Shown here piece after piece: positions 54,424 through 60,362 of a DNA stretch of 64,000 nucleotides. Position numbers and translations under genes: made by a program. Numbering within the stretch: position 1 is the first letter of the stretch; each line of letters begins with the position of its first letter. The DNA is from Herbaspirillum sp. LeCh32-8 (GTDB lineage Bacteria > Pseudomonadota > Gammaproteobacteria > Burkholderiales > Burkholderiaceae_D), in NCBI RefSeq assembly GCF_017814915.1, contig NZ_JAGIPZ010000001.1, forward strand, positions 265,892-329,891, given 5' to 3'. Under the pieces are notes generated by a model. It was not told where the DNA came from, ran no database searches, and saw only the letters and a program-made list of their open reading frames with translations.

Positions 54424-55065
54424 TTACCAGCGCAGCAGGCGCGGGCCCAGCAGCAGGCCGGCCAGCGCCGGGATCAGCATGCCCAGGAAATACCACAGCC
54501 CCCAGAACGGCACGCCCATCTCTGGGCAATGCAGGCAATACACCATGGTGGCGACGGCGCCGGCCAGCAAGCCGGCGACGGCGCCGGTCAGACGCAGCCG
54601 GGTCGGCGCCATGGCCCGCACCGCCCAGGTGACCGTGGCGCACAAGGGCAGCGACAGCAGCGCGATGTTGAACGGGCAGGTGCGCCAGGTGTAACCCATC
54701 AGCAAGGGCAGGCGCTCGGCGGCCGGAGCGGCCACGAACACCAGCGCGCCGCCGATCCAGATCGCGGCGGTCGGCAGGGCGAGGCCGGCCCAGTTCATTC
54801 CCACACGCAGGCCGGGCCGCAGCAGCCGGCGCAGCACCAGCAGCGCGCCGGCCGCCAGCGCCGTGGGGAAGGCCAGCTTGATCCAGAACAGCGGCACCGA
54901 CAGCATAGCCAGCAGATCGGGGCGCAGGCCGAAGCACAACAGCAGCAGCACCGTCGACGCGACGGCGCCGCCGGCCAGCGCCTGCGCCATCCGGCGCGCC
55001 GGCAGGCGAGGGTCCACGGGAGCCGCGCCAGCGGCCATCATTGAAATCAGATCATCGGTTTTCAT
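54424..55065 (-). CDS. nrsF: NrsF-type anti-sigma factor (DUF1109), copy B
   Basis: This 213-residue membrane protein has about six hydrophobic segments. Cys130 (YTWRTCPFN) and Cys180 (YCLHCPEM) match the two cysteines that Caulobacter NrsF needs to sense metals. It has additional Cys44, 142 and 177, so residues 177-180 form a CxxC not found in copy A. It starts inside the sigma gene's stop (ATGA overlap). It would hold the SigF-type sigma factor at the membrane until a metal ion or oxidant is sensed. Confidence 0.88.
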
Positions 55066-55700
55066 AGCTTCTCTCGAATCCTGGCCGCCAAGGCCTTCAG
55101 GCCGCGATGGATGCCCACTTTCACTGCCGACTCGGACAGGCCGGTCAGTTCGGCCGTTTCCGCTACCGACATACCTTGGAGCTTGACGTGCATGATCGGC
55201 AGGCGCTGCTTGTCGGGCAGCTGATCCAGCAGGGCGCCGACATCGCGCCGCGCCTGGGCCGGTTCTTCATCGCTGGCGGCGAACAGATCATGCTCGTCGT
55301 CCAGCGGATCGTTCAGGGCTTCGCGGCGCGAGCGGGCGCGCAGGAAGTCCATCAGCTTGTAGCGCGCGATGGCGTAGACCCAGGCCGTCAGCGGCTGGTC
55401 GGCGCGATAGGTGTGGCGCGCGTTGTGCACCGCCAGCAGGGTTTCCTGGACGATGTCTTCCACGTCGTCCTGCATGTGCATCAGGCGCTTGCGCAGGTAG
55501 GCGCGCAGCCGCGCGCTGAGCTCGGAGAGGAAGTCGCGGTAGGCCGCCGCATCACCGTCCAGCCCGGCCAGCAGCAAGGCGCGCAGGCGCTCTTCGGCGG
55601 GATGGCCGGGCTGCTGGTCGGAAAGCGGTTTCATCGGGCTGCCTGGCGCATGGTCCTGGAACAGGGCGGAATCGGGGGCGGGGAGGGAGCTGCTGGTCAT
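55062..55700 (-). CDS. sigF: ECF RNA polymerase sigma factor, SigF type
   Basis: This is a 212-residue ECF sigma factor. Region 2 reads [20 protein letters not shown], then [19 protein letters not shown]. Region 4 reads [20 protein letters not shown], then [20 protein letters not shown]. It is flanked by two nrsF genes and divergent from the bufferin operon. The start is uncertain: ATG 55700 or ATG 55634, neither with a strong site. Both promoters in the divergent region carry the GTAACC-N16-CGAA pattern reported for Caulobacter SigF, suggesting autoregulation. Confidence 0.88.
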
Positions 55701-55715
55701 GGGGCGCGCCACGGT

Positions 55716-56357
55716 TCACCAGCGCAGCAATAGCGGGCCGGCCAGCGCGCCAAGCGCGGTCGGCGCGGCTACGCCCAGTACATACCAGACGCCCCAGAAC
55801 GGCGGCGCCATCTCCACGCAATACAGCGAATAGACTAGCACGCCCTGCGCGCCGGCCACCAGGCCGGCTGCGGCGCCGGCGGTCGCCAGGCGGGTCGGGG
55901 CAAGCCCGCGCAGGAACCAGAACATGGCCGCCAGCGTCGGCAGCGACAGCAGCGCCACGTTCAACGAACAGGCTTCCCAGGTGCTGCCCAGCAGCAGCGT
56001 CAGGCGCAGTGATGACGGCGCCAATGCCAGCCAGCCCGCGCCGGCCAGCCACAGCGCGACCGGCGGCAGCAGCAGGGCGGCCAGAGGGCCGCGCCCCACG
56101 CGCATGCCCGGATGCGCCAGGCGGGCGGCGGCGGCCAGCGCGGCCAGCAGCACCGCCAGGGGGAATGAGATCTTCAACCAGAACAGCGGCGACTGCAGCA
56201 GCTCGGGCATGTCGCTGCGTACGCCGTAGACGGCCGCCAGCAGCAGCGCCGAACCGGCCAATCCGCCCGCCAGGGCCATCGCCATGCGGGCGCCGTGGCC
56301 GGTATCGCGGTGGTCGCTGCCAGCGGCCAGCATCTCGACCAGCTCCAGAGTTTTCAT
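55716..56357 (-). CDS. nrsF: NrsF-type anti-sigma factor (DUF1109), copy A
   Basis: This 213-residue polytopic membrane protein has exactly the length of copy B. It has Cys130 (STWEACSLN) and Cys180 (YSLYCVEM) at the same positions and the shared ends PPFWGVWY and GPLLLRW, so the two are duplicates that have diverged. It is the first gene of the sigma operon, with a SigF-type promoter about 65 bases upstream. The ATG at 56357 (MKTLELVEML) aligns with copy B's start; the frame extends to 56399. Confidence 0.88.
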   Translation of the reverse strand: MKTLELVEMLAAGSDHRDTGHGARMAMALAGGLAGSALLLAAVYGVRSDMPELLQSPLFWLKISFPLAVLLAALAAAARLAHPGMRVGRGPLAALLLPPVALWLAGAGWLALAPSSLRLTLLLGSTWEACSLNVALLSLPTLAAMFWFLRGLAPTRLATAGAAAGLVAGAQGVLVYSLYCVEMAPPFWGVWYVLGVAAPTALGALAGPLLLRW

Positions 56358-56422
56358 TCGTTTTTCCTCGTTTCCCATGTCGGCTGATGCCGGATTCATG
56401 CGTGCTTTGGCTTTTCTTCTTG

Positions 56423-56448
56423 TTCGCCGGCACGCCGCATCCGGTTAC
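56423..56448 (-). promoter_or_regulatory. SigF-type promoter of the nrsF-sigF-nrsF operon
   Basis: On the minus strand GTAACC (56448-56443), exactly 16 bases, then CGAA (56426-56423). This is the -35/-10 pattern described for Caulobacter SigF promoters, and it implies autoregulation. Confidence 0.8.
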
Positions 56449-56492
56449 ACCCCGGATGAAAAATATATTTCCGCCGATGGCGGGGATGGCCT

Positions 56493-56518
56493 GTAACCGA
56501 CCTGCAAGCGGCGGCGAA
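56493..56518 (+). promoter_or_regulatory. SigF-type promoter of the bufferin operon
   Basis: GTAACC (56493-56498), exactly 16 bases, then CGAA (56515-56518). It mirrors the minus-strand promoter 45 bases away. The bufA start lies about 100 bases downstream. Confidence 0.8.
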
Positions 56519-56622
56519 TTCACTTGCAGATCGGCGCTGCGGCAACACGGCGCAGCCATGGAGAGCAGCTGCCGATCGTATCCAACTTTCATTTTTTCGC
56601 TCAATTTTTAAGGAGTCACACC

Positions 56623-56898
56623 ATGAATGCACGTCTCGCTACCGCCGCCTTCACTCTCGCCACCCTGGCCTCCGGCGTCGCCATGGCGCAAAGCCAGCCG
56701 GCCGCCAAGCCCGCCGCGATGGAAAAATGCTACGGCGTCTCGATGGCCGGCCAGAACGACTGCAAGGCAGGCGAGGGCACGACCTGCGCCGGCACCGCCA
56801 AGATGGACTATCAGGGCAATGCCTGGAAGAACGTGCCGGCCGGCACCTGCACCTCGATCAAGACCCCGCGCGGCATGGGCTCGCTCAAGCCGTTCTGA
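56623..56898 (+). CDS. bufA: Bufferin precursor peptide BufA (DUF2282)
   Basis: This is a 91-residue secreted RiPP precursor. The signal peptide ends near GVAMA-Q23. The mature part has four cysteines, Cys36 (EKCYGVS), Cys47 (NDCKAG), Cys55 (TTCAGT) and Cys76 (AGTCTS), the class 1 bufferin/DUF2282 pattern. In bufferins, core cysteines are converted to thiooxazoles and the product binds copper in the periplasm. AAGGAG lies eight bases before the ATG. It is divergent from the sigF operon and first in buf A-B-C-D. Confidence 0.88.
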
Positions 56899-56912: not shown

Positions 56913-57764
56913 ATGCGCACGCAGCATTTCCAGCCCGGCGCCGGTGTGGGCCTGAAGCCGCAGCACTTCAGCGACGCGCTGGAGTGCGTCGCGCCGGGGC
57001 TGTGGCTTGAGGTCCATCCCGAGAACTACCTGATGGACGGCGGTCCCAGGTTGGCCTGGCTGGAGGCGGTGCGCAGCCGCCATGCGCTGTCGTTGCATGG
57101 CGTATCGCTTTCTCTGGCCGGGCCCGATGCGCCGGATGCTGCGCATCTTGCGCGCCTGGCCCGGTTGGCGCAGAGGGTGGAGCCCTTCCTCATTTCCGAG
57201 CATCTGGCCTGGTCGCGCGCCGGCGGCAGTTACTTCCCCGACTTGCTGCCGGCGCCGCGCAGCGGCGAGATGCTGCAACGTGTCGCTGCCCATATTGCGC
57301 AGGTGCAGGACGTGCTCAAGCGCCGCATCGCCCTGGAAAACCCGTCGCACTACCTGCACATGGAGGGCCACGCGTGGAGCGAGCCCGACTTCCTCTGCGA
57401 GCTGGCGCGGCGCACCGGCTGCGGCTTGCTGGTGGACGTCAACAACGTCCATGTCAGCGCGGCCAACATCGGCATCGATGCCGATGCATATCTGGCGCAA
57501 TTGCCGGGCGAGGCGATTCTGGAGATCCACCTGGCCGGACACAGCAGCGACGGCAGCTTGCCGGGCCTGCTGGTGGATTCGCATGACGCCGCGGTGGCCG
57601 AGCCGGTGTGGGCCTTGTACCGCGCGCTGGTGGCGCGCATCGGCCCGCGCCCCACGCTGATCGAACGCGACGGCAATGTGCCGGCGTTCGACGAACTGTT
57701 GGCTGAACGCGGCGTCGCGCAAGACATCCTGGCGGCGTGCGAAGCGCCGGAGGCGGTGTCATGA
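56913..57764 (+). CDS. bufB: MNIO-family RiPP-modifying enzyme BufB (DUF692)
   Basis: This 283-residue multinuclear non-haem iron enzyme has a TIM-barrel fold. Candidate ligands include His62 (SLHGVS), His97 (SEHLAW), Glu142 (LENPSHY), Asp175/Asn177/His180 (VDVNNVHV), His206 (EIHLAGH), Asp222/His224 (VDSHDAA) and Glu251. BufB oxidises cysteines in BufA with BufC's help. It starts 14 bases after bufA and overlaps bufC by four bases. Confidence 0.9.
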   Translation: MRTQHFQPGAGVGLKPQHFSDALECVAPGLWLEVHPENYLMDGGPRLAWLEAVRSRHALSLHGVSLSLAGPDAPDAAHLARLARLAQRVEPFLISEHLAWSRAGGSYFPDLLPAPRSGEMLQRVAAHIAQVQDVLKRRIALENPSHYLHMEGHAWSEPDFLCELARRTGCGLLVDVNNVHVSAANIGIDADAYLAQLPGEAILEIHLAGHSSDGSLPGLLVDSHDAAVAEPVWALYRALVARIGPRPTLIERDGNVPAFDELLAERGVAQDILAACEAPEAVS

Positions 57765-58519
57765 ACAAGGACTACTACGGCCAATTCCTGCAGGCGCTGC
57801 TGCACGGTGATGCCGCCGCCGATCCGCAAATCGCCGCGCTGCAGGCGCAACCGGCGTTTGCGGTGTATCGCAATACCGTTTTCAAGGGTTGCGCGGACGC
57901 GTTGATGGCCAACTATCCGGCGGTGCGCCGCCTGGTCGGCGAGGCCTGGATGGGCGCGGCGGCGCTGGCCTATGCGTGCGCCAATTTGCCCGACGATGCT
58001 TGCCTGATCGCTTACGGGCGCACGTTTCCCGATTTTCTTTCCCGGCTGGAGCAGGCGCGCGAGCTGCCTTACCTGCCCGGCGTGGCGGCGCTGGACCGCT
58101 GCTGGACCGAGTCGCACCTGGCGGCGGACGACCCCGCCATCGATGCCGACGGCCTGTTCGCAGCCTTGTCGGCCGGGCGCGACGTGCGTCTGGCCCCGCA
58201 TGCCGCCGCGCGCTGGCAGTGGGCAGCGGAACATCCCTGTTACTCGATCTGGAGCGCCAACCGCAACGAGGATGCCGCGCTGGCGCAGACGCCCGACTGG
58301 CATGGCGAGGGCGCGCTGCTGACCCGGCCCGACGGCCAGGTGCAGTGGCAGCCGCTCAGCGTCGGCGCCTGCCGTTTCCTTGATGCCTGCCGCGACGGCA
58401 TGGGCGTGGCGCAGGCGGCCGGGGCGGCGCTGCAGAGCGAACCCGGGATGGATATCGCCGCCACATTGGGCCGCCTGTTGCAGGCAGGGTCCTTTACTTC
58501 CTGCGCATCCTTTCATTGA
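57761..58519 (+). CDS. bufC: BufB partner protein BufC (DUF2063)
   Basis: This is a 252-residue protein. The N-terminal half is the DUF2063 domain (YYGQFLQALLHGD, AVYRNTVFKGCADALMANYP, AVRRLVGEAW), often mislabelled as DNA-binding. It serves as the precursor-recognition partner of MNIO enzymes. The C-terminal half forms a second domain ending in a winged-helix-like part. The ATG at 57761 overlaps the bufB stop (ATGA), consistent with a fixed enzyme-partner ratio. Confidence 0.88.
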   Translation: MNKDYYGQFLQALLHGDAAADPQIAALQAQPAFAVYRNTVFKGCADALMANYPAVRRLVGEAWMGAAALAYACANLPDDACLIAYGRTFPDFLSRLEQARELPYLPGVAALDRCWTESHLAADDPAIDADGLFAALSAGRDVRLAPHAAARWQWAAEHPCYSIWSANRNEDAALAQTPDWHGEGALLTRPDGQVQWQPLSVGACRFLDACRDGMGVAQAAGAALQSEPGMDIAATLGRLLQAGSFTSCASFH

Positions 58520-58553: not shown

Positions 58554-59033
58554 ATGAATCATCACACCCTGACATCAACCGGCAACCACGACGCCACCAT
58601 GCGCGCATCGCTCTGGTCGCGCGGCGCCGGCCTGGCCTCGCGCCTGATCGGCGACTCCTTGCTGGCGCTGGTGGCGCGCTTCTCGATCGCGGCCATCTTC
58701 TTCTATTCGGGCCGCACCAAGGTCAGCGGGTGGCTGACCATCAAGGACAGCACCTATGCCTTGTTCCAGGAGGAGTACCGCCTGCCGCTGGTGCCGCCGG
58801 ACATCGCGGCGCACCTCGCGACGTATGCCGAACATCTGTTCCCGCTGCTGCTGGTGCTGGGCCTGTTCACGCGCGGCGCCGCGCTGGCCTTGCTGGGGAT
58901 GACGGCGGTGATCGAGATCTTCGTTTATCCCGATGCCTGGCCTACCCATCTGTCGTGGGCCGGCCTGCTGTTGCTGCTGGTGGGACGCGGCGGCGGCGCC
59001 TGGTCGCTGGATCGTCGCTTCGGCATTCGCTGA
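58554..59033 (+). CDS. bufD: DoxX family membrane protein (BufD-like)
   Basis: This 159-residue inner-membrane protein has about four hydrophobic segments and the DoxX features [18 protein letters not shown] and [20 protein letters not shown]. DoxX proteins are commonly found at the end of buf operons; the activity is unknown. A site (AGGAG) precedes the ATG, and a methyltransferase gene follows after nine bases. Confidence 0.85.
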
Positions 59034-59042
59034 GGAGTGCGC

Positions 59043-60362
59043 ATGAAGCCCAACGACGATGTACGCGGATTCATCGAAGAGACCTTCGACAACGCCTGGC
59101 GCCTGCATGCCGCGGGCCACCTGGCCGACGCAGAGGAGCAATACCGGCTGCTGCTTGCGCTGGACGAAGAGCACGCGCCCGGCCTGCATTATCTGGGCAT
59201 CCTGCTGCACCAGAGCGGCAACCGGCAGGAGGCGCTCGATTGCCTGCAGGCCGCCCAGCGCAGGCAGCCCGACAATGCCGACTGGCGCAACGACGCCGGC
59301 AACGTGATGTTCGCGCTGCGGCGCTACGACGAGGCCGTGCTGGCTTACCAGGCGGCGCTGGCGATCCGCCCCGATGACGCGCAGTTGTGGAATAACTGCG
59401 GCGCCGCCCTGCGCGAAGCCGGGCGCACCGCCGAGGCGATCGAGGCCTTTTTACGCGCGCTTGATGCCGTGCCCGACCTGGCCCCGGCCATGGTGCAGCT
59501 GGCGGCGTTGTTCGAGCAGGCCGGCGACCCCATGCGTGCGTCACGCTACCAGTGCATGGCCTATGTGCTGCCGCCGCACGAGGGCAAGTCGAAGGAACTG
59601 TTGGGGACCTCCTACTACTTCCTCGGCCGTATCGGCGAGGCCGAGCAGTTGTGCCGGCAATGGCTGCTGGAAGAGCCCGGCAATCCGGTGGCCGAACACA
59701 TGCTCGCGGCCTATGGCGGGAGGCTGACGGCGGCAGCGCCGGTGGGGTATGTCGAGAAGCGCTTCGACGATTATGCCGATCATTTCGACGTCAACCTGGT
59801 GCAGCAGCTCGGCTATCGCGGCCCGGAGGTCGTGGCCGGGTTGCTGGAAAAGATAGGTATGAACGGCGAGGGCAAGCAGCTCGATGTGCTCGACATCGGT
59901 TGCGGCACCGGGCTGTGCGCACCGGTGCTGGCGCCGCTGGCGCGCAGGCTGGACGGCGTGGATCTGTCGGAAAACATGCTGCGGCATGCCGCCGCGCGCG
60001 GGCTCTACACGCAGCTGGACAAGGCCGAGGCCGCCGGCTGGATGGCGCAGCTGCAAGTGCAATACGATGTGGTGGTGGCCTGCGACGTGGTGATTTACTG
60101 CGGCCGGCTGGAGGCCTTGTTCGCCGCCGTGCGGCATGCGTTGCGTGACGGCGGGTGGTTCGTCTTTACCGCCGAAGCGGCGGAGGATGCCGAAGAGGAC
60201 GGCTACCTGCTGCATCCCAGCGGCCGCTATCGCCATCACGCCGCTTACGTCGAGCGTTGCCTGCGTGAGTCCGGCTTCAGCGTGGACACGCTGCGCCGCG
60301 AGAGCATCCGGCTGGAGATGCGCGACCCGGTGCCCGGACTGGCGGTGCTGGCCCGGGCCTGA
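59043..60362 (+). CDS. TPR-repeat SAM-dependent methyltransferase
   Basis: This is a 439-residue fusion. About four to six TPR-like helical pairs occupy residues 12-220 (HLADAEEQYRLLLALDEEHA; NRQEALDCLQAAQRRQP; RYDEAVLAYQAALAIRP; RTAEAIEAFLRALDAVP). A class I methyltransferase domain follows, with motif I LDIGCGTG at 283-290 and VVVACDVVIYCG downstream. ATG 59043 is preferred to GTG 59037 by spacing from GAGGAG. It is nine bases from bufD, so it is probably in the bufferin operon; whether it modifies bufferin or another protein is unknown. Confidence 0.8.
   Translation: MKPNDDVRGFIEETFDNAWRLHAAGHLADAEEQYRLLLALDEEHAPGLHYLGILLHQSGNRQEALDCLQAAQRRQPDNADWRNDAGNVMFALRRYDEAVLAYQAALAIRPDDAQLWNNCGAALREAGRTAEAIEAFLRALDAVPDLAPAMVQLAALFEQAGDPMRASRYQCMAYVLPPHEGKSKELLGTSYYFLGRIGEAEQLCRQWLLEEPGNPVAEHMLAAYGGRLTAAAPVGYVEKRFDDYADHFDVNLVQQLGYRGPEVVAGLLEKIGMNGEGKQLDVLDIGCGTGLCAPVLAPLARRLDGVDLSENMLRHAAARGLYTQLDKAEAAGWMAQLQVQYDVVVACDVVIYCGRLEALFAAVRHALRDGGWFVFTAEAAEDAEEDGYLLHPSGRYRHHAAYVERCLRESGFSVDTLRRESIRLEMRDPVPGLAVLARA

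Follow-up and report, generated by a model that had tools for sequence, protein, structure and literature searches.

Back-to-back predicted SigF-type promoters between a sigma/anti-sigma operon and a bufferin operon of Herbaspirillum, and their spacing in other genomes

We analyzed a 64,000-nucleotide stretch of the Herbaspirillum sp. LeCh32-8 genome (the window, to which coordinates below refer), in which two mirror-image promoters probably switch on, from one spot, an operon for a sigma factor and its anti-sigma factors and an operon for copper-binding peptides. Our reading, drawn from sequence comparison and given a probability of roughly 87%, is that a single ECF16 (SigF-type) sigma factor, itself a product of the left operon, acts at these back-to-back promoters to drive both operons, and that the promoter spacing is kept helically. 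The features are as follows.

54424-55065, minus strand: nrsF-b, second anti-sigma gene (PF06532, 236.6 bits; both conserved Cys)
55062-55712, minus strand: sigF-like ECF sigma gene (Pfam Sigma70_r2 and r4_2; NCBIfam PRK12536 over cut-off)
55716-56357, minus strand: nrsF-a, promoter-proximal anti-sigma gene (DUF1109/NrsF; PF06532, 209.8 bits; both conserved Cys)
56423-56448, minus strand: predicted sigma-F-type promoter GTAACC-N16-CGAA of the nrsF-sigF-nrsF operon (exact match; pair conserved)
56459-56470, no strand: AT-rich block AAAAATATATTT, UP-element-like by sequence, between the two -35 elements
56493-56518, plus strand: predicted sigma-F-type promoter TGTAACC-N16-CGAATT of the bufferin operon (exact match)
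56529-56577, plus strand: predicted 5'-terminal hairpin of the bufA mRNA leader (outer stem GATCGGC/GCCGATC; -27.4 kcal/mol)
56623-56898, plus strand: bufA, DUF2282 (Buf1) bufferin precursor (PF10048, 89.2 bits)
56913-57764, plus strand: bufB, MNIO enzyme (PF05114, 321.5 bits; NCBIfam MNIO_BufB over cut-off)
57761-58519, plus strand: bufC, DUF2063 partner protein (PF09836, 69.8 bits; no NCBIfam match)
58554-59033, plus strand: DoxX-family membrane protein (PF07681, 62.6 bits)

The intergenic region and its flanking genes

An earlier note on the window had described two identical SigF-type promoters in a single 265-nt gap. Both copies of GTAACC-N16-CGAA are there without mismatch and on the strands it gave, at 56493-56518 (plus) and 56448-56423 (minus), and the gap does measure 265 nt (56358-56622), provided that nrsF starts at the Met-Lys-Thr codon, which has GAGG upstream. 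The spacers, which it had called identical, are equal in length (16 nt in both) but differ in sequence, and the "sigma operon" does hold sigF, but as its second gene, with an anti-sigma gene (nrsF) on either side. The motif that it had ascribed to Caulobacter SigF-dependent genes is indeed the published sigma-F site, printed as GTAACC-N16-CGAA (PMC3511200). We also agree that a chance pair is unlikely: taking the density of the five other N16 sites of the genome as background, our own arithmetic gives about 1e-8 as the chance that two exact N16 sites stand divergently within a given 265-nt gap, before correction for the choice of region.

The left operon resembles the ECF16 (SigF/NrsF) group in several respects: its ECF sigma factor has regions 2 and 4 with Pfam scores over cut-off, DUF1109/NrsF anti-sigma genes lie beside the sigma gene (PF06532 twice), the promoter motif stands before the operon itself (56448-56423), and C130 and C180 (nrsF-a numbering) are invariant in 11 aligned NrsF proteins. 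On the NCBIfam NrsF equivalog both copies score below cut-off (145.7 and 108.4 of 300 bits). The start codon of nrsF-b overlaps the sigF stop codon (ATGA), and the whole genome has two NrsF matches and one DUF2282 match. Within the genus, 14 of 22 loci (window included) carry nrsF-sigF-nrsF, two of these with a gap after the first nrsF, while 3/22 have sigF-nrsF only and 5/22 are incomplete in the stretch or have nrsF alone. Having the anti-sigma gene first could hold the sigma factor in check during autoregulation.

The right operon combines a DUF2282 precursor (PF10048), an MNIO enzyme (PF05114) and a DUF2063 partner (PF09836), the composition of a Buf1 cluster, with bufA below the NCBIfam BufA2 cut-off (26.5 of 60 bits). 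The bufA product has four Cys and, by eye, a signal peptide. A TPR-methyltransferase gene (59043-60362) starts about 10 nt after doxX and may be the final member of the bufferin operon. Among viral contigs, no bufB relatives were confirmed, and our literature search retrieved no publication on DUF2282 in Herbaspirillum.

Single sites and paired sites

The pattern with a spacer of N14-18 occurred twice in the window, against a mean of 0.21 in 100 shuffles (two or more in 2/100). A whole-genome scan of the kind that the earlier note had proposed returned 27 matches with N14-18, fewer than the reversed control (49); seven of the 27 had N16 spacing, and the five of these outside the pair each lie inside a stop-to-stop reading frame of at least 100 codons, which says little in a G+C-rich genome. 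Using TGTAACC-N16-CGAANT with at most one mismatch, we obtained five matches in the genome, two of them the window pair, and five again for the reversed control; the site at 56493-56518 is the only match without mismatch. Because reversed controls match as often or more, single sites are uninformative background, and only the pairing and the conservation of sites are informative. Three candidates for a wider regulon in the same genome were rejected: an Oxidored_molyb gene (L273) has no N16 site within two mismatches, and neither the three two-mismatch matches at a second one beside a cytochrome b561-like frame (L274) nor the two at an MsrB gene (L275) are promoter-like.

To find pairs from DNA alone, we scanned the genome collection for TTCG-N16-GGTTAC-N30-60-GTAACC-N16-CGAA, which admits site spacings of 56-86 only, yielding at least 119 loci (L120-L238) that are exact by construction, since they were chosen by the exact pattern. 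With profiles built for this analysis, and within the DNA examined, sigF/nrsF was found beside 111 of the 119 matches listed, bufA/bufB beside 74, and neither beside four. The 80 record titles listed are mostly of alpha-, beta- and gammaproteobacteria, with two metagenome-assembled genomes labelled Verrucomicrobia (L146) and Actinobacteria (L188). By eye, the neighbours of pairs lacking bufA/bufB include cytochrome b561 with molybdopterin oxidoreductase (MsrPQ-like), MsrA/MsrB, thioredoxin-like proteins and Met-rich MXKDX peptides, which fit published ECF16 regulons (PMC3511200, PMC8315932).

Starting from the anti-sigma factor, a phylum-wide search matched NrsF in 81 of 398 genomes. Among the best 29 NrsF loci, an exact N16 site lay upstream of sigF on its strand in 10, a site variant in eight (five GTAACA..CGAA; others such as GTAACC..CGTA), and nothing was found with the variant pattern in 11, so the motif is not universal for NrsF-linked sigma factors; four of the 29 had an exact pair. 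In Asticcacaulis both back-to-back sites carry the same altered -10 (CGTA), a case which hints that paired sites change together. Two plasmids also carry sites. On one of Variovorax paradoxus (L278, 3087-3112), an exact site precedes bufA with no sigF/nrsF match in the stretch; on a conjugative plasmid of Stenotrophomonas rhizophila (L279, 2968-3129), an exact pair with site starts 136 bp apart lies beside a bufferin operon, with an nrsF match and no sigF match in the stretch. Separately, one locus (L244) has a tandem sigF-nrsF-nrsF with exact N16 sites before sigF, between both nrsF genes and after the second nrsF (889, 2145 and 2890).

Spacing of the two sites

We defined d as the number of base pairs from the start of one site to the start of the other. 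Over 119 distinct pairs (121 loci), values of d were concentrated sharply at 58-60 and 68-72 and more diffusely over 75-86, mostly 82-83, with no pair at 64-65 or 73-74 and six at 61-63; the few spacings above 90 were 125, 146, 159 and the 136 of the S. rhizophila plasmid. The spacing prefers steps of about one helical turn (near 59, near 70 and, broadly, 75-86 bp). To measure periodicity, one value was taken per sigF cluster, leaving out values of d above 86. For three clusterings, R was 0.61 (77/80 clusters), 0.64 (35/37) and 0.63 (19/19), with best periods of 11.6, 10.7 and 11.4 bp, and the observed R was reached by 0, 0 and 0.1% of 2,000 smoothed-null draws, respectively.

Preferred spacings could also reflect shared ancestry, or some constraint other than a helical requirement, an explanation that we consider unlikely. 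Related genomes do have spacings in common, the third group is broad (75-86), the best-fit periods (10.7-11.6 bp, not 10.5) are somewhat longer than a turn of B-DNA, and the paired sites of Brucella BcrS are 64 apart (PMC8315932), with 61-63 occurring too. We followed spacing changes along the sigF tree, on 129 loci kept after dropping those lacking a sigF frame of at least 110 aa and duplicate pair sequences; out of 64 disjoint nearest pairs, we counted 60, those separated by less than 1.0 substitutions per site. The change was at most 3 bp in 39, 8-13 or 19-24 in 17, 4-7 in two and above 24 in two, with none at 14-18. Changes of 4-24 bp were thus 17 in phase versus 2 out (binomial 0.003, in bins selected after the histogram had been viewed), and leader length, which served as control and was usable in 32 of these pairs, showed no such preference (4 in phase, 9 out). 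Both this and the R of 0.64 at 10.7 bp, which none of the 2,000 draws reached, argue against ancestry and for a spacing held near whole turns. A narrow literature search retrieved no publication on helical phasing of divergent sigma-factor promoters, and we do not claim that the spacing is unpublished.

Across 135 oriented pairs, the DNA 10-18 nt upstream of the -35 is AT-rich on both sides. At d of about 59 the two AT blocks coincide, and they separate as d grows; at a spacing of 146 bp (L073) each promoter has, by eye, an AT block of its own. The blocks probably contact the alpha C-terminal domains of polymerase.

Conservation at bufA loci and control of the bufferin operon

DUF2282 is present in 177 of the 294 genomes of the window's GTDB family. 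We assembled 90 bufA loci (L030-L119), comprising the window, the 29 other best DUF2282 matches and 60 stretches hand-picked across genera from the matches listed. Within the stretch examined, 29 of the 90 have sigF or nrsF near bufA, and 28 of these 29 (window included; not 28 independent cases, as some loci are near-identical) have the exact pair with both spacers N16. The sole miss (L114) has sigF next to bufA and doxX, arranged differently, and lacks a sigma-F site. Among relatives the spacers drift and the -35 and -10 letters are kept. By comparison, none of the 61 bufA loci lacking sigF/nrsF had an exact N15-17 site in the approximately 600 nt scanned upstream (L040 and L108 having upstream stretches below 660 nt); an N16 match with a single mismatch occurs at L033 and at L096. 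Many of the 61 were covered for about 1.5 kb on each side, so that a more distant sigF is possible in them. The contrast of 28/29 with 0/61 indicates that the pair goes with the sigma and anti-sigma genes, and it supports, at the level of sequence, the earlier claim that the sigma factor is tied to the bufferin genes. The 61 loci, all within L031-L119, are probably regulated otherwise.

These 61 of 90 loci do imply that other control of bufA exists, and in the window too the bufferin operon might be mainly under another regulator, such as a repressor or activator that responds to copper, with the sigma-F sites basal or secondary only. We hold this to be improbable. It would accommodate the report that rpoQ deletion in Cupriavidus metallidurans did not lower gig expression (PMC10304878), and it could draw on inverted repeats that overlap both window sites (56497-56508/56523-56534 and 56438-56444/56452-56458). 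As operators, these repeats were rejected: they are absent, by eye, from the printed sequences of relatives and so look like chance. The retention of the -35 and -10 letters while spacers drift also argues against such a regulator, as does the lack of any sigma-70-type promoter match in 56300-56700. Recognition of the sites by some other ECF sigma factor of this genome is very improbable, since the pair follows sigF/nrsF neighbours, even though activity of the Caulobacter sigF promoter is not wholly sigma-F dependent (PMC3511200).

The bufA leader

Unlike the sigma-side leader, the bufA leader tends to form a 5'-terminal hairpin, according to folding predictions. We compared the 50 nt after the bufA-side site with dinucleotide shuffles in 85 oriented loci where bufA adjoins the site, obtaining a mean z of -1.31, with 50/85 below -1. 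The same folding test gave a mean z of 0.18 for the sigma-side leader (11/85 below -1, no better than shuffles) and 0.97 for the bufA gene start (4/85 below -1), using start codons picked by script. In a test with a fixed 5' arm, to which the window and C. metallidurans CH34 were added, p was at most 0.05 in 37/87 on the bufA side versus 6/87 on the sigma side, and the hairpin of the window reached a z of -3.2 in the arm-specific test. An alignment of 32 leaders, window included, gave no significant covariation of the stem (75.0% of cells paired versus 73.2% when shuffled, a value reached by 63 of 500 shuffles), and RNAalifold predicted no pairs on it; several 3' arms were misplaced in this alignment, by eye, and we therefore relied on the alignment-free tests. 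Rfam had no match in 56300-56700 at E-values up to 1. Since covariation was not significant, we regard the hairpin as a tendency and not as a proven RNA family; a role in the stability of bufA mRNA is a guess.

A reading frame of 17 codons (56558-56611) also lies in the leader and ends at the ribosome-binding site; as a candidate leader frame it was set aside, as it was not apparent, by eye, in other leaders.

Proposed mechanism

In the mechanism that we propose, a periplasmic signal, which may be copper, another thiophilic metal or an oxidant, would act on NrsF through its two conserved Cys. SigF, once freed, would bind RNA polymerase and initiate in both directions from the predicted start sites. 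Leftward transcription would yield more anti-sigma and sigma factor, an autoregulation with built-in shut-off, and rightward transcription would cover the bufferin precursor and its maturation genes. Polymerase alpha C-terminal domains would probably bind the AT-rich DNA that lies 10-18 bp before each -35. The two polymerases would stand shoulder to shoulder (about 110 bp between predicted starts), for which reason the spacing would be kept near whole helical turns.

A further, tentative step, which we regard as possible but would not favor, is that the paired promoters are physically coupled. Two SigF polymerases, bound to a platform of fixed helical phase whose UP-like blocks are shared or adjoin, would cooperate with or exclude each other and in this way set the ratio of anti-sigma to bufferin mRNA; the hairpin, present on the bufferin side alone, would then stabilize or tune that mRNA. 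Should the helical spacing be borne out, coupled action of divergent ECF promoters would be possible, a feature invisible to single-promoter motif scans.

Comparison with known systems

The closest likeness is to Caulobacter SigF-NrsF and CC3254-CC3257, which share with the window the motif, the targets (DUF2282, DUF692, DUF2063, DoxX) and a neighbouring position, judged from gene numbers (PMC3511200). There, start sites come from 5'RACE of two DUF2282 promoters (CC3254 and CC2907) and, for sigF, from primer extension in earlier work. Assays of lacZ fusions together with a sigF mutant showed a need for the motifs preceding sigF and CC3254, the sigF promoter being only partly sigma-F dependent; the paper describes no strong autoregulation of sigF under chromate (PMC3511200). 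Copper induces the SigF regulon, a sigF mutant is copper-sensitive (PMC8224329), and two NrsF Cys are reportedly needed for NrsF inactivation (PMC6180224; mutants in legends of PMC3511200). Caulobacter differs in having one nrsF, co-transcribed with sigF, where the window has nrsF-sigF-nrsF, and in having further target loci (CC2748 and CC2905-2907; PMC3511200), where the scan of the window's genome found no further convincing site. More generally, sigma and NrsF genes are listed for Buf1 clusters (PMC12452194).

Sinorhizobium meliloti RpoE7 (ECF16) likewise has a divergent operon, SMb20527-20530 (orthologues of CC3254-CC3257), with two predicted motifs (PMC6180224). Overexpression of RpoE7 activates this target operon, and the same paper reports no response of rpoE7 and its target to H2O2, Cd or chromate. 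Brucella BcrS/AbcS-bcrXQP has an exact back-to-back pair (Table 1 of PMC8315932) and a divergent target operon as well, but the target there is a Met-rich peptide with MsrPQ, the inducer is HOCl, and the spacing of 64 is off the series seen here.

The divergent genes of C. metallidurans gigPABT and rpoQ-rsqA are the same as those of the window, with the difference that the sigma gene is promoter-proximal there (PMC10304878) and nrsF-a here. In CH34 (NC_007974.2; L276, 2985-3070) we found an exact pair with a spacing of 60 between sigF/nrsF and bufA/bufB matches, with an AT block and a long predicted bufA leader hairpin; the record is unannotated there, and the names gigP and rpoQ are taken from PMC10304878. 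According to that paper, no promoter was identified upstream of gig, proof of RpoQ dependence was missing, the rpoQ region is said to be RpoD-dependent, and deletion of rpoQ raised gig expression in metal-treated cells, which was explained as compensation. The CH34 pair is the missing candidate promoter for this copper- and gold-induced gig/bufferin operon and makes RpoQ/SigF control of gig directly testable. The divergent SigF-type arrangement is thus already known from Caulobacter SigF, S. meliloti RpoE7 and Brucella BcrS; the present analysis adds the exact pair at the window locus and at the CH34 gig/rpoQ divergon, the clustered spacing of the sites with AT blocks upstream of each -35, the hairpin tendency of the bufA leader and the nrsF-sigF-nrsF operon.
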